A stretch of 64,000 bases of DNA, from positions 248,001 to 312,000 of the forward strand of contig NZ_JBEWSZ010000003.1 of assembly GCF_040537815.1 (NCBI RefSeq), in the 5' to 3' direction. A program made the position numbers and the translations under genes. Positions 1,284-12,592 of the stretch are shown here, piece after piece. The notes under the pieces are model-generated. The model worked only from the letters and a program-made list of their open reading frames with translations, had not been told where the DNA came from and did no database searches. The DNA is from Mesorhizobium shangrilense (lineage in GTDB: Bacteria; Pseudomonadota; Alphaproteobacteria; Rhizobiales; Rhizobiaceae). Every line of letters starts with the position of its first letter. Within the stretch, counting starts at the first letter, position 1.

Positions 1284-1499
1284 GCGGCCACTCCAGGCGG
1301 GCAAGCGCACCCGCGAGATTCATCCGTCGTGGTCCGTGGCGCCAAAGAAAGGTGACGGGGAGCCGCTTGTTCGAGATCTCTTCGCCGCCCTTTCCTCCAC
1401 GTCGCTGGAGGGAGAGCGGGGCCGGAAGGAATGCGGCCTTGCCGGGGCGCAGAGAGCGTGCCGGCGGGGCGGACACTCACTTCCGCGAAGGACATATCC

Positions 1500-4400
1500 A
1501 TGAACATCGTCACGACCTCATCGGCCGTCGCCCCGACGGCCGCTCCCCTTGCCAACCCGACGCCTGACGCCATCGATACGGCGCAGGCGATCCACCAGGC
1601 GGCCACACAGCTTCTGCCCTTCCTGGAACAGGGCAAGCCCATCACCACCGCGACATTACGCACGGCCATGACCGACAATTTCGGCGGCACCGATGCACAA
1701 GGCTTCTGGATTTGGAAGGACGCCTACGAGGCGTTCGAAGCCGCCCAAGTCCTGTTTCTCCACCGCTTCGGATCCGCGATCCTGTCCCGATCGGCCTCGC
1801 CGCAGGCGACGCTGGCGATGATGAAACGCATCGCCGAACTCGTTCCCACCCACACGCGCCGCTCCGACGAGAGCCAGGCCATGCAGCAGCTGTCGACGCC
1901 GCTCCCGCTCGCTTTCGTCACCGCCCACGCCGCCGCGATCGCCGCTTCAGACCTCGTTCTCGAACCCTCGGCCGGCACCGGCCTTCTCGCCGTCCATGCC
2001 GAGATCGCAAGGGCATCGCTTGCCCTCAACGAGCTTGCCGCGACACGCGCCGATCTGCTCGGCCTGCTGTTTCCGCGGGTTCCCATTTCCCGGCATGACG
2101 CAGCCCATATCGACGATCATCTCGATCCCGCCATCGAGCCGTCCGTCGTTCTGATGAACCCGCCCTTTACCGTGGGCGCCTATGTGGACGGCCATGTCGC
2201 CGATGCGGCATGGCGGCATCTCTCCTCCGCGTTCGCACGCCTTCGCGCCGACGGCCGTCTTGTCGCGATCACGGGCACCGATCTTTCGCCCGAAAACCCC
2301 AAATGGCGGCCCGCCTTTGAGCGGCTACAGCAGCAGGGCAGGATCGTCTTTACCGCGGCAATCGACGGCCGCATCTATGCCCGCCATGGCACGACCGCCG
2401 AAACCCGCCTGACGATCATCGACAAGACCGCCGCCGCCGACCCATCCATGTTCGTCACCTCGCCGGGCAAGACTCCGAATGTCGAGACGCTGCTCTCCTG
2501 GATCTCTGACCTGCCGCCCCGGACACCGGGCGGCTTTCGGGACTCGATCGGCGCGCTGTCGAACGGGATCCTGCGCAAGACAGCAATGCAGATGGCCGGT
2601 CGGTCCGCGGTAAGCATCGCACTCATCCCCGCCTCGGCGGCTGCCCCGAAGACCATCCGGCCAGCCCACCCGGTTGCCCGGACGAAGCCCGCCCGACCAG
2701 CCATGGCCAGCAGCGCGCCTGTCCTCCCGCTTGCCTATAAGCTGCGCGACTGGATGCCGGAGGAGGGCGGCCGGCTCATCGACACGATCTATGAGCCCTA
2801 TGCGCTCCAGTCGATCCACATCTCGCGCGCCAAGCCGCATCCGACACCGCTGGTGCAGTCGGCGGCCATGGCCTCGGTCGCGCCGCCGAAGCCGTCCTAC
2901 CGACCCCTCCTGCCTGATGCGATCATCGACGACGGCTTGCTGTCCGACGCCCAGATCGAGAGCGTGATCTATGCCGGCGAAGCCCACTCCGGCCATCTCG
3001 CAGGAGCCTGGACTGTCAACGAAACCTGCGATGTGGTCGCGGCCGCCCCTGAAGGCGCCGAGAATGCGGTCCGCTTCCGCCGTGGATGGTTTCTTGGTGA
3101 CGGAACCGGCTGCGGCAAGGGCCGACAGGTCGCCGGCATCATCCTCGACAATTGGCTGCAGGGCCGCCGCCGCGCCATCTGGATTTCCAAGTCGGACAAG
3201 CTGCTCGAAGACGCCCAGCGCGATTGGGCAGCACTTGGCCAGGAACGTCTCCTCGTCCAGCCGCTCTCGCGCTATCGGCAGGGCACGCCCATCCGCCTTG
3301 CCGAAGGCATCCTCTTCACCACCTATGCGACGCTCCGCCCGCAGGAGCGCGATGGCAAGAAGTCCCGGATCGCCCAGATCCTCGACTGGGTCGGCCAAGA
3401 GGCGGGGAGGGCTGCAGGCCCGACTGGGACTGAGGAAAAGGTAACGAGGAGCGGCGAGGCCGCGACAGGGACCAAAAAGCACTTTGATGGCGTCATCGTT
3501 TTCGACGAGGCGCACGCCATGGCGAACGCAGCCGGCGGCAAAGGCGAGCGTGGCGACGTCGCCCCGTCACAGCAAGGCAAGGCCGGACTGCGATTGCAGC
3601 ACGCCCTCCCAGACGCCCGCGTCGTCTACGTGTCGGCGACTGGAGCGACGGCGGTCGAGAACCTGGCCTACGCCCAGCGGCTCGGCATCTGGGGCAGCGA
3701 GGACTTTCCGTTCGCCAACCGGGCCGAGTTCGTCGCGGCCATCGAGGACGGAGGCGTGGCAGCAATGGAGGTCCTCGCCCGCGACCTCAAATCGCTCGGC
3801 CTCTACATGTCGCGCTCGCTCTCCTATGACGGCGTCAAATACGACCTCCTCGAGCATGAGCTGACCGAGGAACAAATCCGCATCTACAATTCCTATGCCG
3901 ACGCCTTCCAGGTCATCCACAACAACCTGAATGCCGCGCTCGAGGCCGCCAACATCACCAGCGATTCCGCAACGCTGAACCGCAACGCCAAATCGGCGGC
4001 GCGGTCGGCCTTCGAGAGCACCAAGCAGCGCTTCTTCAGCCATCTGATAACCTCGATGATGACGCCGACGCTGATCGGCGCCATCGAGCAGGACCGCGCC
4101 GAAGGCCATTCGGCGGTCGTGCAGATCGTCTCGACCGGCGAAGCGCTGATGGAACGGCGGCTGGCCGAGCTCCCGACCGAAGAATGGGCGGATCTGCATG
4201 TCGACGTGACGCCGCGCGAATACGTCGGCGGGTATCTGATGCATTCCTTCCCGACACAGCTGTTCGAGGAATATTCAGACGCCGAGGGCAACGTCTATTC
4301 GCGGCCGGTCCACGATGCCGACGGCAACCCGGTCCAGTGCCGGGAGGCAGTTCGCCGGCGCGACGGAATGATCGAAAAACTCGCATCGCTGCCGCCGGTC

Positions 4401-6038
4401 GGCAGCGCACTCGACCAGATTCTCCACCATTTCGGTACCGACACCGTCGCCGAGGTGACAGGCCGCTCGCGGCGGATCGTCAGGAAGACCGGCCGCGACG
4501 GCGTCGACCGGCTTGCAGTCGAGAACCGTCCGGGCTCAGCCAATCTCGCCGAGACGCAGAGTTTTATGGACGACGACAAGGGCGTGCTGATCTTTTCCGA
4601 CGCCGGCGGCACCGGCCGCTCTTATCACGCCGATCTCGGGGCTCGAAACCAGAGACTGCGCAAGCACTATCTGCTTGAAGCCGGCTGGCGCGCCGACAAC
4701 GCCATCCAGGGTCTCGGGCGGACCCACCGTACCAATCAGGCGCAGCCGCCACTGTTCCGGCCCATGGCCGCCAATGTGAAGGCCGGCAAGCGCTTCCTGT
4801 CGACCATCGCGCGGCGGCTCGACACGCTGGGTGCAATCACGCGCGGCCAGCGCCAGACCGGCGGGGCAGGGCTGTTCAGGTCGGAGGATAATCTCGAAAG
4901 CCCGTATGCACGCGCCGCCCTACGCCAGTTCTACTATCTTCTGCATCAAGGCAAGATCGACGGCTGCTCGCTCACGACCTTCGAAGCCGTCACCGGCCTG
5001 TCGCTGACGACAGACGAGGGCGGCTTGCGCGATGAGTTGCCGCCGATCACGACCTGGTTGAACCGCCTGCTGGCACTGCGCATCGAAACCCAGAACCTTT
5101 TATTCGAGGTGTTCGAGCAGCTGATGGCGGCGAAGGTCGAGGGCGCAATCGCCGCAGGCAACTACGACAGGGGTCTGGAGACGATCACGGCGGAAAGCAT
5201 CGCCGTCACCAATCGGCGCACCGTCTATACGTATCCGGTCTCGGGCGCGCAGTCGCATGTGCTGACCATCGCGCGCAAGGACCGCATCCGGCCGCTCGGT
5301 CTGGTAGACGCGCTGGCCATTGCCCGCGCGGAACCGCAATCGGTTCTGCTGGTCAACACCCGGTCGAACCGCGGGGCAATCCAACTGGCGACAGCAAGCC
5401 TGATGCTCGACGACGGCGCAATAGAACACCGCGTACGCCTGCTGCGGCCAACCGACGAGCTGCGCTTTGGCCTCGACGCCCTTGCCGAAACCCATTGGCA
5501 GCCGGCTGACAGAAAACTGTTCTGCGAGCTGTGGCAGGCTGAAGTGATCGCCGTCCCGGAGTTCACCACCAGCACATTCCACATCGTCACCGGCCTTCTG
5601 CTGCCGATCTGGCGGCGGCTGCCGGACCATGACTGCCAAGTCTACCGCCTCCAGACCGATACGGGCGAACGCATTATCGGGCGCCACGTCGCGCCAACGC
5701 TGGTCGCGACGATGTTGCGCAATCTCGGTCTCCACGATGTGCCGACGCTTGCACCGGACGAAGCTTGGAAGGGTCTGGTCGACGGACGGATAGGGTTGCA
5801 GCTTGCCGACGGCCTGGTCCTGCGCCGCAGCCGGGTCATGAACGACTACCGTGTCGAGCTGATCGGCTTCACCGACGCGATGGCCCCCCGGTTGAAGGCC
5901 TTGGGCCTGATCTCCGAAATCATCTCCTGGAAGCTCAGGCTATTCATTCCGACCTCTACGCAGGGCTCTGCCATGCTTGCTTCGCTGCTTGAGCGCCATA
6001 CGCTGGTTGGGGTCACCGATCGCACAGCCGCGGCGTGA
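1500..6038 (+). CDS. DarB-like protein: N6-adenine methyltransferase fused to strawberry-notch helicase
   Basis: 1512 residues with two visible modules. The N-terminal module is an S-adenosylmethionine-dependent methyltransferase: motif I EPSAGTG at about 155-161 and catalytic NPPF at 220-223, the signature of adenine-N6 enzymes. The second module is a superfamily-2 helicase of the strawberry-notch type: Walker A GDGTGCGKG at 533-541, DEAH at 669-672 and motif VI-like GRTHRT at 1073-1078, with a long C-terminal extension. This architecture matches DarB of phage P1, which protects incoming DNA from type I restriction, and related polyvalent proteins of conjugative elements. By inference it protects or remodels element DNA on entry. 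The start at 1500 follows GAAGGA at a suitable distance; the frame extends upstream only as low-quality sequence. Both active sites look intact. It precedes the Toprim gene by 12 bases. Confidence 0.85.
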   Translation: MNIVTTSSAVAPTAAPLANPTPDAIDTAQAIHQAATQLLPFLEQGKPITTATLRTAMTDNFGGTDAQGFWIWKDAYEAFEAAQVLFLHRFGSAILSRSASPQATLAMMKRIAELVPTHTRRSDESQAMQQLSTPLPLAFVTAHAAAIAASDLVLEPSAGTGLLAVHAEIARASLALNELAATRADLLGLLFPRVPISRHDAAHIDDHLDPAIEPSVVLMNPPFTVGAYVDGHVADAAWRHLSSAFARLRADGRLVAITGTDLSPENPKWRPAFERLQQQGRIVFTAAIDGRIYARHGTTAETRLTIIDKTAAADPSMFVTSPGKTPNVETLLSWISDLPPRTPGGFRDSIGALSNGILRKTAMQMAGRSAVSIALIPASAAAPKTIRPAHPVARTKPARPAMASSAPVLPLAYKLRDWMPEEGGRLIDTIYEPYALQSIHISRAKPHPTPLVQSAAMASVAPPKPSYRPLLPDAIIDDGLLSDAQIESVIYAGEAHSGHLAGAWTVNETCDVVAAAPEGAENAVRFRRGWFLGDGTGCGKGRQVAGIILDNWLQGRRRAIWISKSDKLLEDAQRDWAALGQERLLVQPLSRYRQGTPIRLAEGILFTTYATLRPQERDGKKSRIAQILDWVGQEAGRAAGPTGTEEKVTRSGEAATGTKKHFDGVIVFDEAHAMANAAGGKGERGDVAPSQQGKAGLRLQHALPDARVVYVSATGATAVENLAYAQRLGIWGSEDFPFANRAEFVAAIEDGGVAAMEVLARDLKSLGLYMSRSLSYDGVKYDLLEHELTEEQIRIYNSYADAFQVIHNNLNAALEAANITSDSATLNRNAKSAARSAFESTKQRFFSHLITSMMTPTLIGAIEQDRAEGHSAVVQIVSTGEALMERRLAELPTEEWADLHVDVTPREYVGGYLMHSFPTQLFEEYSDAEGNVYSRPVHDADGNPVQCREAVRRRDGMIEKLASLPPVGSALDQILHHFGTDTVAEVTGRSRRIVRKTGRDGVDRLAVENRPGSANLAETQSFMDDDKGVLIFSDAGGTGRSYHADLGARNQRLRKHYLLEAGWRADNAIQGLGRTHRTNQAQPPLFRPMAANVKAGKRFLSTIARRLDTLGAITRGQRQTGGAGLFRSEDNLESPYARAALRQFYYLLHQGKIDGCSLTTFEAVTGLSLTTDEGGLRDELPPITTWLNRLLALRIETQNLLFEVFEQLMAAKVEGAIAAGNYDRGLETITAESIAVTNRRTVYTYPVSGAQSHVLTIARKDRIRPLGLVDALAIARAEPQSVLLVNTRSNRGAIQLATASLMLDDGAIEHRVRLLRPTDELRFGLDALAETHWQPADRKLFCELWQAEVIAVPEFTTSTFHIVTGLLLPIWRRLPDHDCQVYRLQTDTGERIIGRHVAPTLVATMLRNLGLHDVPTLAPDEAWKGLVDGRIGLQLADGLVLRRSRVMNDYRVELIGFTDAMAPRLKALGLISEIISWKLRLFIPTSTQGSAMLASLLERHTLVGVTDRTAAA

Positions 6039-6050
6039 AGGGAGGCGAGC

Positions 6051-7121
6051 ATGACAGGCTCGGCCTCCGAGCTGGCGCGCCGTCTCGGCGACGATGCCGA
6101 GGCGGTGTGCCGCGAATATCTCTCCAACGGCCATCGCTCGGGCAATCACTGGATCGTCGGCGATGTCCGCAATACGCGCGGCCGCTCCATGCATGTGCGC
6201 CTGAACGCCAACGCGAAGGGCCCGGCTGGCAAGTGGGTCGACGAACAAAGCGGGGAACATGGTGATCTGCTCGATGTCATCCGCGAAAGCTGCGGCCTTG
6301 TCGATTTCCGCGATGTCGCGGATGAAGCGCGTCGCTTCCTTACCATGCCGCGAGCACAGTGGCCGACCTCCCGCGCGCAGCCCCAGCGTGCCGTGGCACG
6401 CGGCTCTCCCGGCGCCGCGGGTCGCCTGTTTGCCATGTCGCAGCCGATCGCGGGCACGCTTGCCGAACGCTACCTTGCCCGTCGCGGCATCCTGCTCGCC
6501 GCGCGCGAGCGCGCTCTGCGCTTCCATCCCGGCTGCTACTACCGGGATCTCGTGACCGGCGAGACGCAGACGCTTCCCGCCATGATCGCCGCCGTCACCG
6601 GCCTCGACGGGCGCATCACCGGCCTGCAGCGCACTTACCTGTCCCCTGGCCTCTCCCCTGGGCTCGACCCGAGCGGCAAGGTCGGCAAGGCGCAGCTCAT
6701 CGATCCCCGTCGCTCGCTCGGTCATCTTCTCGGCAACGCCATCTGGTTGGGCCTCGAACCCGGTGCCCCCATTCCGGTCATGGCCGCCGGCGAGGGCTTC
6801 GAGACGATGGCCTCGTTGCGGACGGTGATGCCGGCACTGCCGGTGGCCGCGGCCACCTCGGCCAATCACCTCGCCGGCCTGACCTTCCCGCCCGGCTGCC
6901 GTCGCCTCTACATCGCGGCCGATGCGGACGCCGCCGGCCGGCATGGCATCGAGCGTCTCAGCCAGCTCGCAGGCGAGGCCAGGATCGAAGCTCTCGTGTT
7001 GCGGCCGGAGCTCGGCGACTTCAACGACGATCTGCGCCATCTCGGCGCGGACCACCTCGCCGCATGGCTGCGAGATCAGCTCTTTCCGGAAGATGCCCGT
7101 CTGTTCCTGCCGTCCGGATGA
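6051..7121 (+). CDS. Toprim-domain primase-like protein (DUF7146 plus Toprim)
   Basis: 356 residues, cytoplasmic. The N-terminal half is a primase-associated region (WVDEQSGEHGDLLDVI, followed by FRDVADEARRF). The C-terminal half, about residues 240-340, is a Toprim fold: acidic motif AAGEGFETM, then YIAADADAAGRHG, where the DxD pair binds metal, then GDFNDD. Such proteins are thought to prime synthesis on transferred single strands or to act in plasmid replication. GGGAGG at 6039-6044 places the start at 6051, 12 bases after the helicase gene, so the two are likely co-transcribed. No mutation of the metal-binding acids is visible. Confidence 0.85.
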   Translation: MTGSASELARRLGDDAEAVCREYLSNGHRSGNHWIVGDVRNTRGRSMHVRLNANAKGPAGKWVDEQSGEHGDLLDVIRESCGLVDFRDVADEARRFLTMPRAQWPTSRAQPQRAVARGSPGAAGRLFAMSQPIAGTLAERYLARRGILLAARERALRFHPGCYYRDLVTGETQTLPAMIAAVTGLDGRITGLQRTYLSPGLSPGLDPSGKVGKAQLIDPRRSLGHLLGNAIWLGLEPGAPIPVMAAGEGFETMASLRTVMPALPVAAATSANHLAGLTFPPGCRRLYIAADADAAGRHGIERLSQLAGEARIEALVLRPELGDFNDDLRHLGADHLAAWLRDQLFPEDARLFLPSG

Positions 7122-7292
7122 CCGGCTCGGGCCGGCAGGCGGGCAGGGGCGGCGTCACTGAAAGCCTCGCAGGCATGGAGGTGGTCCGGCGGGAGGCCGC
7201 GCCCGCGGCCTGCCTGAGAGGCGATCCCTGCCACCCCCCGGTCACGGCCGCAACGGCTGCGCCGTCCTCCGCTTTGCTCCGGCCTTCGGTGC

Positions 7293-7313
7293 GGCCGCGC
7301 CCAGGGCGCGGCC
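7293..7313 (+). terminator. GC-rich hairpin after the Toprim gene
   Basis: GGCCGCGC (7293-7300) and GCGCGGCC (7306-7313) form a perfect 8-bp stem with loop CCAGG, followed by GGGTTTCG. It sits between the Toprim stop (7121) and the SLOG start (7367). The short T-run makes it a possible, not certain, terminator. Confidence 0.4.
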
Positions 7314-7366
7314 GGGTTTCGCTGTCAGGCCGCGATGAGCGCGGCCGCAACCGACGGAGACACGCC

Positions 7367-8308
7367 ATGACCTACGAGCTTCCTTTCGACGACGCCTACG
7401 AGCCCTACAACGCCTCCTCGCCGACCGATCGCGTCATCCTCGAACTGCAGATGTACGGCCACCGTCCGCATCAGGACGAGCCCGATCCTCGCCCGCTGCC
7501 CGACGACGAGGTGATCCGCGCCGGCCTCGCCGGAATCGTGGAGACATTCGCCGGCATGCTCGGCGATACCAGGCTCGAACCCGACCTCGACGACCTGCTC
7601 TGGAGCTTCGCGAACGTCTTCCACCGCGCCGCCGAGCGCGTCGCTCGCAGCCTCGATCGCAATGAGGAGGCCCAGCGCTCGAGCCAGAACGAGCAGGATG
7701 GCTCCGAGGTGAAGTCCGTCGAGCTGGAACGGCTCACGGCCGAGGGCATCACCTACATCGAGCGCCGCAACGTTCTGGAAATCATGCGCGACGAGGCGGC
7801 CGACCTCTACGAGGCACAGACGGGCTCAGCATGGCGGCCGCGCACCGGTTCCAAGGTTTCCCATCAGGCGATCACCGCGGCGGTGATCGACAGCCGGGAC
7901 TTCCTCGCGGCACGCCGTCGCGCCGAAACCGAGGTGCTGGTCCCGGCCGGCACCAAGATCGCCTTCGCTGGCGGTCTCGACTGCAACGAGCACGACAGGA
8001 TTTGGGAGGCGCTCGACAAGGCCCGCGAGAAGCACTCGGACATGGTCCTGCTCCACGGTGGCAGCCCGCGCGGCGCCGAGCGGATCGCCGCCTGCTGGGC
8101 CGAGAATCGCAAGGTCACCCAGATCGCCTTCAAGCCGGACTGGAACCGGCACGCCAAGGCCGCTCCGTTCCGCCGCAACGACCAGCTGCTCTCGGTAATG
8201 CCTTACGGGCTGATCGTCTTCCCCGGTTCCGGCATTACCGAAAACCTCGCCGATAAGGCCCGCCGCCTCGGCATTCCGGTCTGGCGGTTCGCGGAGGGTG
8301 GCGCGTGA
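7367..8308 (+). CDS. DUF2493 / SLOG-superfamily nucleotide-binding protein
   Basis: 313 residues. The C-terminal third carries the Rossmann-like SLOG pattern of DUF2493: KIAFAGGLDCNEHDRIWEAL (about 198-217), then LHGGSPRGAERIAACWA, then a late GSGITENLADKARRLGIPVWR. SLOG domains bind nucleotides or nucleotide-derived signals and often act as sensors in conflict systems. The N-terminal 190 residues are acidic and helical, with no domain I can name. The start at 7367 follows GGAG at 7356-7359; the longer open frame upstream (from 6359) is only antisense-like overlap with the Toprim gene. A 14-bp stem terminator follows at once. The role on the plasmid is unknown; sensing host nucleotides during establishment is a guess. 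Confidence 0.85.
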   Translation: MTYELPFDDAYEPYNASSPTDRVILELQMYGHRPHQDEPDPRPLPDDEVIRAGLAGIVETFAGMLGDTRLEPDLDDLLWSFANVFHRAAERVARSLDRNEEAQRSSQNEQDGSEVKSVELERLTAEGITYIERRNVLEIMRDEAADLYEAQTGSAWRPRTGSKVSHQAITAAVIDSRDFLAARRRAETEVLVPAGTKIAFAGGLDCNEHDRIWEALDKAREKHSDMVLLHGGSPRGAERIAACWAENRKVTQIAFKPDWNRHAKAAPFRRNDQLLSVMPYGLIVFPGSGITENLADKARRLGIPVWRFAEGGA

Positions 8309-8604: not shown

Positions 8605-9138
8605 ATGGCGATGATATTCCTCGGCGGTTCACGCGACATCTTCGAACTGCCAGTCCCCGCGATCGAGCGTATCGGCGGAATCGTCGCGGCCGAGCACGGC
8701 GTGCTGATCGGCGACGCGCCAGGAGCCGATGCCGAGATGTAGGGCCTGCTCGCGGGCTACAATTACGAGCATGTCGGCGTCTTCCATGCCCGGGCCGAAC
8801 CGCGCAACAATCTCGGTGATTGGGCCGCTTACCACGTTCCTCCGCCGGGCGGCGCACAAGGCTTTGCCGTCCACGCCGAGAAGGACCGGGAAATGGCCCG
8901 CCGCGCCCAGTTCGGGCTGATGGTCTGGGACGGCGCGTCGCCGGGCACCTGCCTCAACATATTGCGTCTCGCCGTGATCGGCAGCTCCTGCGTCGTCTAC
9001 GACATGATGCGCGGCAGGGTGGCGACCGTTCAGAACACCGCGGACTGGCGCGCCATGCTGCACATTGCGGGCCCTGACGTTCTCCGCGAGGTTGAAGCCC
9101 GCATGACGGCGGAGGACCGCCTGGCACTGCCCGCCTGA
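8605..9138 (+). pseudogene. Second SLOG-like gene interrupted by an in-frame TAG
   Basis: The frame starts at 8605 after AAAGGAAAG and reads MIFLGGSRDIFELP, then GVLIGDAPGADAEM, the usual beta-strand/GxGxD pattern of short SLOG proteins. TAG at 8740-8742 (codon 46) stops it. The same frame then continues open and protein-like for 131 more codons (LLAGYNYEHVGVFHARAEPR, FGLMVWDGASPGTCLNILRL) to TGA at 9138. A single change, for example CAG to TAG, would restore a 177-residue protein. So this is a recent nonsense mutation, a sequencing error or, less likely, readthrough. GGAAAG spacing supports the start. Confidence 0.8.
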
Positions 9139-9848
9139 TCGCCGCGAGCCCGCCGGCACTGGGCGGCGCAAGCGCCCGCTTTGACCCGGCCGAAGCCGAC
9201 CCCGGCGCTTGTGATGACCGCGGCGATCGTTGCTTGCTCCTTTCGAAGCCAGCCCCTCGCGAGGCCGGCCCTTGCGGCCCCCGGCAATCCTCAGGAGCAT
9301 CCTGCCCGTCTGTCGCGCCAGGGGCAGGGCAGTTGCGGATCAGGCAGGGCATTCCCGGCTGCCGCGCCTGACCGGGCGAGCCCCGCCCGTGTCGGAACAG
9401 AGCGCCACCTGCCGGCTCCGATGTCGAAACCGGGCGCATGACGGAAGACGGGGCAGGGGACCTCCTCGATGGATCGTGGGGTCCGGAGGGTGATGGAGAG
9501 CAGATCCGCAGGCGGGGCAAACGCTTGACTGCGGCCGCCGCACCCGGCGTGATGGATCTGCGATGGTGGCCGGAGGCATCGCCTTCGCTCACATCCGGAC
9601 CAATCCCTTGTCATGTCGCCTTTGTAGACGACCGCCTGCTTTGTGCGGTCAACCCCCGTTGGGGGTACACTCGGCGAAAATTCAGGAAAATTCGATTTCT
9701 GTTTTTTGTCCGCGGACAGGCGAAGGGCCTGCCCGCTGTTTTCGGCAAATAGAATTTTCCAGAATTTTCGCCGAGATGACCGCAGCAGGACGGCCCTCTC
9801 CTTTGGCGCCATCGGGAATGGTCCCGATGCAACCGAAGGAGAACTACC
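9139..9848. other. 710-bp intergenic region holding a complex inverted-repeat structure
   Basis: No convincing gene was found on either strand. The first 500 bases are GC-rich without recognisable protein signal. The last 200 bases shift to AT-rich words (AAAATTC, TTTTTT) and contain the inverted repeats listed separately. It separates the broken SLOG-like gene from the DUF736 gene and could be a replication, transfer or control region of the element. Confidence 0.6.
9652..9775. repeat. Nested inverted repeats upstream of the DUF736 gene
   Basis: A 24-base left arm (9670-9693) pairs with a right arm (9752-9775) with a single mismatch. Each arm itself holds two GAAAATTC words, so the region shows four copies in mirrored order. 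The 58-base loop contains a T6 run, the palindrome GTCCGCGGAC (9708-9717) and AGGC/GCCT pairing. Just left lies another hairpin, ACCCCC (9652-9657) with GGGGGT (9661-9666). The DUF736 start is 73 bases to the right. The layout suggests binding sites of a dimeric regulator, or an origin or oriT-type structure. Confidence 0.8.
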
Positions 9849-10172
9849 ATGGCCACCACGATCGCAAACCTCACCACCAAGGCCGACGGCTCGATGGAAG
9901 GCGTCTTTGCCACGCTCCGGGTCAACGCCCCGATCACGCTCATCCCGAACACCAACAAGTCGCGCGAGGATGCACCCGACTACCGCATCGTCAACAAGCG
10001 CACGGGCTTCGAGATCGGAGCCGGCTGGAACCGCATCTCGCAGCGTTCGGGCGAGGAATACCTCTCGGTCAAGATCGAGGCCCCCGAGATCGGCGTGATC
10101 TTCGGCAACCTCGCCCCCGCCCCCGGCGGCGACGAGAGCAAGAAGGTGATCCTCTGGAACAACCCGCAGTGA
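9849..10172 (+). CDS. DUF736 family protein
   Basis: 107 residues matching the DUF736 pattern: an N-terminal beta segment after the start, then APITLIPNTNKSREDAPDYR and GFEIGAGWNR, with LSVKIEAPEIGVIFGNL near the end. These small soluble proteins are frequent on alphaproteobacterial plasmids; the fold is beta-rich and the function unknown. AAGGAGAA ideally precedes ATG 9849. It is followed by a hairpin with T-rich tail. The mirrored repeats upstream make it the best candidate for a tightly regulated gene in this block. Confidence 0.85.
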   Translation: MATTIANLTTKADGSMEGVFATLRVNAPITLIPNTNKSREDAPDYRIVNKRTGFEIGAGWNRISQRSGEEYLSVKIEAPEIGVIFGNLAPAPGGDESKKVILWNNPQ

Positions 10173-10179
10173 GCTTCGG

Positions 10180-10211
10180 GGGCCGGTCTCGAAGGGCCGG
10201 CCCTTCCTTTT
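10180..10211 (+). terminator. Terminator after the DUF736 gene
   Basis: GGGCCGG (10180-10186) pairs with CCGGCCC (10197-10203), followed by TTCCTTTT. It lies 7 bases after the DUF736 stop, typical of a rho-independent site. Confidence 0.7.
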
Positions 10212-10231
10212 CAGACGATCAGGAGGTTTTA

Positions 10232-10561
10232 ATGAGCCGCTACACCATCACCGTCACCGGCAAAGGCCGCTCCGATCCCGACGCCATCATTGGCTACGAT
10301 CCGCCGCTGCGGACCCTCTTCCTTCAGGCTTTCCCTCACGAGGTGACCGACGATCCTGCGCTGTGGCTCGGCACGAGGGACCGCGAATATGAAACCGTCG
10401 ACGCCCTGCGTGCAGCAGCTCTTGCCAGAGGCTTCGACTTCATGCCCCTGCCGGCCGCCCTCGCCGCGAAACTTATCGAGGACAAAGCCGCAGCGGCCGG
10501 CTGGGCGCCACGCGATGGGCGTCTCGCTGAATTTCTGAAACGACTCAACCTGTCCGACTAG
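10232..10561 (+). CDS. Small conserved plasmid protein of unknown function
   Basis: 109 residues, soluble. AGGAGG at 10221-10226 fixes the start at ATG 10232. The protein opens with a beta strand (YTITVTGKG), has YDPPLRTLFLQAFP and a conserved-looking WLGTRDREYETVDALRAAA, and ends in a helical segment. I do not recognise the family. It is boxed between two terminators and so forms its own transcription unit, or is reached by readthrough from the DUF736 gene 59 bases upstream. Confidence 0.65.
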   Translation: MSRYTITVTGKGRSDPDAIIGYDPPLRTLFLQAFPHEVTDDPALWLGTRDREYETVDALRAAALARGFDFMPLPAALAAKLIEDKAAAAGWAPRDGRLAEFLKRLNLSD

Positions 10562-12420: not shown

Positions 12421-12592
12421 ATGTTCCCGGATGCATAATTGGTTCCGGACTGGCGAGTCATCGGATCAGTATAATGTTGCATGGTGAATTGACAAGATAC
12501 GCAATTTGGGTCCAAATTGGCTGAGCAGGTCATCGCTTCGCTTTGACCTGGACCGTCTTCGACGGGAGGCCCATGCGCCATAGCGAGGAATT

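Follow-up and report, generated by a model that had tools for sequence, protein, structure and literature searches.

A conserved fold-back leader of DUF736 genes in rhizobial conjugative elements, a probable single-stranded-DNA promoter

Organization of the locus

We have analyzed a 64-kb stretch of DNA from Mesorhizobium shangrilense (64,000 nucleotides; the window, in whose numbering positions are given), with emphasis on a 252-base leader (9597-9848) in front of a DUF736 gene (PF05284 by domain scan; 9849-10172, plus strand). Its product is predicted to be small and all-beta, and it has no clear relative by structure. To the left of the leader lie several genes oriented towards a nick-type motif: the leading-side genes for DUF1419 (624-1283) and DUF7146/Toprim_3 (6051-7121, plus strand), a strawberry-notch-type gene named by its position in relatives (1431-6038), and a YAcAr gene (7364-8308). 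The motif itself, GTATCTTG^T behind the inverted repeat AATTTGGACCCAAATT, is found on the minus strand at 12492-12500. A WGR-domain gene (PF05406; 10744-11019, minus strand) lies between DUF736 and the motif, and a relaxase gene (PF03432; 13000-15270, plus strand) lies on the far side. The gene directly left of the element (8605-9138, plus strand) contains an in-frame TAG at 8740-8742; its counterpart in the related locus L077 is an unbroken annotated CDS of 534 nt (7207-7740).

The mirrored repeat and its fold

The initial annotation, made from the letters alone, had described a large mirrored repeat in front of the DUF736 gene, and that description was confirmed. Two 24-base arms (9670-9693 and 9752-9775) pair with a single mismatch, the A/T centre, and each carries the word GAAAATTC twice; the loop holds a T6 run and the palindrome TGTCCGCGGACA, and the hairpin ACCCCCGTTGGGGGT adjoins at 9652-9666. 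An inverted-repeat tool extends the arms to 29 nt with 93% complementarity (9670-9698 and 9747-9775). The two-word pattern occurs at these two places only in the window when up to 3 mismatches are allowed (0 occurrences in 100 shuffles), and with up to 2 mismatches it is unique to this site in the 8.35-Mb assembly. The fold of 9640-9790 has a z-score of -9.4 as DNA and -8.3 as RNA, with none of 200 shuffles equally stable in either case. The mirrored repeat is real, conserved and far beyond chance.

This repeat is the middle of the larger fold-back leader of the DUF736 gene, parts of which had been missed. The arms are enclosed by further stems at 9645-9651/9777-9783 (P1), 9630-9640/9784-9795 (the lower stem) and, outermost, 9597-9608/9813-9824, and a hairpin at 9797-9842 is predicted to mask the Shine-Dalgarno sequence. 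On the minus strand, which folds better and is the presumptive transferred strand, the first half of the leader in the 5' to 3' direction is the template arm, with the lower stem (9784-9795) and the 5' arm of P1 (9777-9783), and leads into the AT-rich hairpin P3 formed by the extended arms. After P3 come the GC hairpin P2 (ACCCC..GGGGT; 9652-9666), which sits at a three-way junction, the sequence TTGACC, the partners of P1 (its 3' arm, 9645-9651) and of the lower stem with a bulge on this non-template arm (9641-9644, 4 bases in the window), and finally CTACAA.

Distribution and sampling of the leader

The suggestion that this DNA would prove conserved and linked to DUF736 is borne out. A blastn search with 9400-10250 matched 314 of 72,556 plasmid records. 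Most of these are named as Rhizobium, Sinorhizobium, Agrobacterium or Mesorhizobium, and Rhizobiales predominate; the narrower query 9640-9860 matched 304. Of 297 genomes sampled from the family of the window, 40 match. One copy was found per element.

For comparative analysis 82 leaders were taken, after matches without a nearby ATG or with less than 300 nt upstream had been dropped. Omission of six copies of the window (L062-L064, L075, L076 and L091) left 76 leaders, all with the core, and removal of those more than 95.5% identical gave a non-redundant set of 36. Because these 36 are related by descent, and similarity of the leader or the gene led to most of them, their conservation is in part a product of how they were selected. 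Conservation of the arms in relatives, by which the first description of the repeat was to be judged, was examined in this set: the AT-rich P3 arms are kept in 29 of 36 leaders, the other 7 having a shorter, GC-rich P3, and P1 is paired in 99.2% of cells.

Covariation and strand bias

The 36 leaders were aligned on the minus strand. The consensus returned by the tool has 37 pairs, 13 of them with two-sided change; a fuller consensus has 82 pairs (95.7% of cells paired), 26 with two-sided change. Shuffles give 12.5 such pairs and slid pairings no more than 9, although template-switch correction may also give two-sided change in a quasi-palindrome. The consensus is more stable on the minus strand than on the plus strand (-113 vs -100 kcal/mol with DNA parameters, -156 vs -141 with RNA parameters), and single leaders fold lower on the minus strand in 36/36 cases with DNA parameters and in 30/36 with RNA parameters. 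At the 75 pairs predicted on both strands, read on the minus strand, there are 67 G.T cells vs 11 A.C cells, although C-to-T decay of the transferred strand might produce a similar excess. Mean G+T on this strand is 0.498, so the excess is not explained by composition. Taken singly, the window has an unremarkable strand difference of -2.2 kcal/mol, with values as negative or more so in 39 of 102 control windows, and its 330-nt leader has a z-score of -10.0 on the minus strand and -9.3 on the plus strand relative to 30 shuffles.

These observations bear on one of the functions first considered for the repeat, that of the operator of a plasmid master regulator. The symmetric part changes two-sidedly and with a strand bias, neither of which a protein-binding palindrome needs, and the AT-rich arms are absent in 7 of 36 relatives.

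The presumptive transferred strand and leading region

An origin of transfer inside the element had also been considered. No nick-type motif was found within it; the one with its inverted repeat at 12492-12500 lies 2.6 kb away. Of the 76 loci, 39 have 2 kb or more of downstream sequence, many of them close relatives. In 25 of the 39 a nick-type motif follows an inverted repeat of at least 6; it is always on the minus strand, 2.1-5.4 kb past the start of DUF736, and 0 of the 39 have one on the plus strand or upstream of DUF736. Eighteen of the 25 are of the MOBP kind and 7 of the Ti/RSF1010 kind (TTGCG^CCCTC), the nick bases being assigned from the MOBP and MOBQ nick motifs. An RSF1010 nick motif gave no clear match in a first search. 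The patterns were fixed after viewing the window, L077 and L090 (P type) and the traC-traA gaps of L078, L079, L081 and L083 (Q type); L004 and L020 had been matched earlier with a nearly identical pattern, and the other 13 P-type and 3 Q-type loci were unseen beforehand. Thirteen of the 14 loci that lack the motif have 2.4-4.0 kb of downstream sequence, and L006 has 5.8 kb. In L026 the motif with its inverted repeat occurs twice downstream of DUF736, at about 6821 and 6922, 101 nt apart.

Since these motifs all lie on the minus strand and downstream, DUF736 should enter a recipient early, and its template strand should be the entering strand. Judged from the motifs, DUF736 should thus belong to the leading region and the folding strand should be the transferred strand. 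With the nick so placed, the leader has the position of Frpo/ssi promoters: it belongs to the leading region and precedes a gene whose transcription, templated by the transferred strand, runs towards oriT.

The order strawberry notch, toprim, DUF2493, DUF736, WGR, transfer genes is whole in L077, L078 and L090, present under other names in L081 and partial in L079 and L083. The neighbourhood of DUF736 adjoins two unlike transfer systems, one ParA/MobC/VirD2-like and the other a Ti-type TraG-TraD-TraC/TraA system. The WGR gene is downstream of DUF736 in 12 of 16 annotated DUF736 stretches examined; in L085 it is upstream.

Putative promoter boxes

The non-template arm carries two putative promoter boxes on the minus strand, TTGACC as the -35 box (9647-9652) and CTACAA as the -10 box (9622-9627, partly inside an internal loop). 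The TTG is invariant in the 36 leaders (TTGACC 23, TTGGCC 5, TTGACG 5, TTGCCC 2, TTGGTC 1). At -10, CTA is found in 30 of 36 (20 are CTACAA, and one of the 30 spans an alignment gap), the others being TTAGAA in 5 and CCACAA in 1. Spacing between the boxes, taken from alignment columns, differs between the arms: along the template arm it is 16 nt in 33 of 36 leaders, 15 in 2 and 17 in 1, and along the non-template arm it is 18 in 22, 19 in 13 and 17 in 1. The promoter consensus given for S. meliloti in PMC2873474 is CTTGAC-N17-CTATAT, which equals TTGACN-N16-CTATAT, so that the 16 nt of the template arm match the Sinorhizobium optimum as it is stated there. We infer that the bulge, which shortens the helical distance from -35 to -10, would bring the boxes to the consensus distance only in the folded strand.

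The right arm is the one that would drive DUF736 in duplex DNA. There, on the plus strand, the first T of the TTG is replaced by G in 16 leaders, A in 13 and C in 7, before TGA or TGC, and is T in 0 of 36. The main worries for a single-strand promoter are the weak -10 match (CTACAA vs CTATAT) and the -35 box, which straddles the three-way junction with its first T unpaired with the template arm. A scan of 9300-10250 for E. coli-type promoters found none on either strand.

A proposed promoter formed by the entering strand

The leader is probably, at about two chances in three, an Frpo/ssi-type promoter that works as single-stranded DNA and belongs to the leading region of a conjugative element of rhizobia. 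The reading draws together the covarying fold, its strand bias, the orientation of the nick-type motifs and the conservation and spacing of the boxes. During conjugation the minus strand would enter the recipient 5' end first and the leader would fold into a branched hairpin composed of the outer stems, P1, P2 and P3, with P2 possibly stacked on P1. The 3' arm of this fold would act as the non-template strand, presenting TTGACC at the P2/P1 junction and CTACAA partly in the internal loop, and the 5' arm as the template, which runs directly into DUF736. RNA polymerase bound here would start near 9808-9812 (plus strand), a site predicted from the pairing map about 7 nt past the -10 box as read on the partner arm, and just past an anti-Shine-Dalgarno sequence at 9795-9805. 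In duplex DNA the good promoter faces the other way from DUF736, and neither box is present in the right arm, so that the gene would be silent.

If correct, this reading would identify a gene that these plasmids express soon after reaching a new host and give DUF736 a testable role in establishment. It would also supply a search rule for similar promoters, namely covariation on the transferred strand together with boxes on one arm only.

Predicted masking of the ribosome-binding site

The Shine-Dalgarno sequence of DUF736 is GGAG at 9838-9841. In predicted folds of window transcripts its unpaired probability depends on where the transcript begins: it is about 0 for starts from 9600 to 9795, where the 9797-9842 hairpin hides it, 0.26 for a start at 9480, and 0.36-0.58 for starts at 9800-9815. 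Over the 36 leaders the mean freedom of the Shine-Dalgarno sequence is 0.48 in the short transcript and 0.06 in one 35 nt longer, the short one being higher in 35 of 36. Compared with the whole leader (mean 0.26) the short transcript is higher in only 27 of 36; long leaders thus mask less evenly. A translational interlock on the DUF736 mRNA is likely on these predictions. Because the proposed start lies past the anti-Shine-Dalgarno sequence, the short mRNA would be translatable, and longer read-through mRNAs would be masked.

Such masking could also belong to a cis-acting RNA leader, in which a ligand, a protein (perhaps DUF736 itself) or temperature opens a plus-strand mRNA that hides its own Shine-Dalgarno sequence. 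The hiding of GGAG in transcripts from 9600-9795 and the stability of the RNA fold (z -8.3) would suit this explanation, but G.T is favoured on the minus strand and not on the plus strand (67 vs 11), and no Rfam family reaches its gathering score in the window (three sub-threshold matches lie in the region). It also leaves the invariant TTG, the spacing along the template arm and the place beside oriT unexplained. We regard it as unlikely in place of a single-strand promoter, although it may exist as a second layer. In known Shine-Dalgarno-masking leaders, as here, an anti-Shine-Dalgarno hairpin stands immediately before the gene; unlike in those leaders, it is the transcript start and not a ligand that would decide masking in the rhizobial element.

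Comparison with known single-strand promoters

PMC9849209 describes how Frpo of the F plasmid folds as a single strand and so re-forms -10 and -35 boxes. The rhizobial leader resembles F Frpo1 and Frpo2 and the ColIb-P9 ssi promoters, as they are presented there, in lying ahead of a leading gene within the leading region and in the folding of a single strand. It differs from these promoters in having a GC hairpin of its own and a three-way junction at -35, boxes of the alphaproteobacterial consensus, a place before DUF736, and an anti-Shine-Dalgarno sequence upstream of the predicted start. It was found once per element, whereas the account of F gives two copies. Of the three most stable 180-nt windows of F Frpo2, one is an AT-rich hairpin on the matching strand; for Frpo1 the stability maxima of the stretch were in other places. 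The rhizobial leaders have no detectable sequence similarity to the two F Frpo stretches (best E 0.14), so they would be Frpo-like in working and not homologues. By this comparison the leader is Frpo-like in layout and probably so in working. The lack of similarity, together with spacing that follows the rhizobial consensus, would then suggest that expression before second-strand synthesis arose more than once.

Frpo-like candidates have been reported widely by Samuel et al. 2024, who searched with TTGACA/TATAAT and with BLAST against known Frpo sequences (PMC11541004). Their candidates, in anti-defence islands, are defined as this one is, by an intergenic position in a leading region, a fold and a box consensus; rhizobia and DUF736 are absent from the main text of that paper. 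The single-strand promoter experiments related in the accounts of PMC9849209 and PMC11541004 concern F and ColIb-P9, and we found no report of a single-stranded-DNA promoter in rhizobia in the literature searched.

The same fold, on the same strand and in the same place, would serve equally as a single-strand initiation site, which primes synthesis of the second strand and has no role in DUF736 expression. Nothing points to the replication origin that had been proposed for the repeat, and second-strand priming of this sort is possible. The title of a 1997 paper by Masai and Arai reportedly calls Frpo both a promoter and a primer site, and the two roles are compatible with each other. Priming to the exclusion of the promoter is improbable, somewhat more so than the RNA leader: in all 36 leaders the fold extends into the ribosome-binding site, and the gene to which this site belongs is always the same.

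A possible origin from an inverted copy of DUF736

Inverted matches to the DUF736 coding region lie to the left of the element in 13 of 36 leaders, among them L050 (377 nt at 70.6%), L110 (67.9%) and L039 (71.3%). The window has a protein match of 39% (E 7.5e-4) and a match of 34 nt, at 82%, to coding positions 146-179; we read the latter, at 9408-9440 on the minus strand, as the remnant of an inverted DUF736 copy. The left flanks of the remaining leaders match the leader only, the first gene bases, weakly, or not at all. Open stretches of at least 60 aa with an inverted DUF736 match occur in just 4 of 36, so the inverted copy has decayed in most relatives. In L009, where such a stretch covers residues 12-107 at 32%, a living inverted copy may persist.

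The matches within the coding region, the open stretches with a possible living left gene in L009, and the TTGACC-CTACAA pair that points left in double-stranded form could instead reflect an ordinary double-stranded divergent promoter or operator inherited from a divergent pair of DUF736 genes. This is very improbable. No such open stretch was found in the other 32 of 36 leaders, and still every leader retains the TTG that points left; the intact right gene has no TTG on its side; the linear spacing of 18-19 is long; and 26 of 82 pairs covary. Retention of this TTG in leaders with no visible left gene is consistent with a promoter that acts on the right gene by folding. Least credible of all is a counter-transcript, in which an RNA transcribed from the minus strand would fold and repress DUF736: the minus strand is indeed the better folder, but such an RNA requires a promoter inside the DUF736 coding region, where none of E. 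coli type was found, and an RNA from TTGACC/CTACAA would run leftward, outside most of the fold.

Returning to the single-strand promoter, we propose tentatively, at somewhat less than even odds, that plasmids built it from an inverted and since decayed copy of the very gene that it drives. The bulge and the three-way junction would set the distance between -35 and -10 only in the folded strand, and the RNA interlock would restrict translation to mRNAs begun on single-stranded DNA, so that the protein would be made only in the minutes after entry. If true, this would be an early-gene switch common to rhizobial symbiosis plasmids and related elements.

Leaders of more distant DUF736 genes

The 330 nt before four distant DUF736 genes, of Variovorax (L142), Mesorhizobium NBSH29 (L143), Shinella (L144) and Hydrogenophaga (L145), fold back too. 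Their z-scores are -3.7, -1.8, -2.8 and -6.4, respectively, on the T-side strand and -4.0, -0.3, -4.8 and -6.8 on the plus strand, the T-side strand being no better in three of the four. A TTG followed by a CTA box is absent from these four leaders; L144 has a lone TTGACC. In L146, which was found through protein similarity, both boxes are present.
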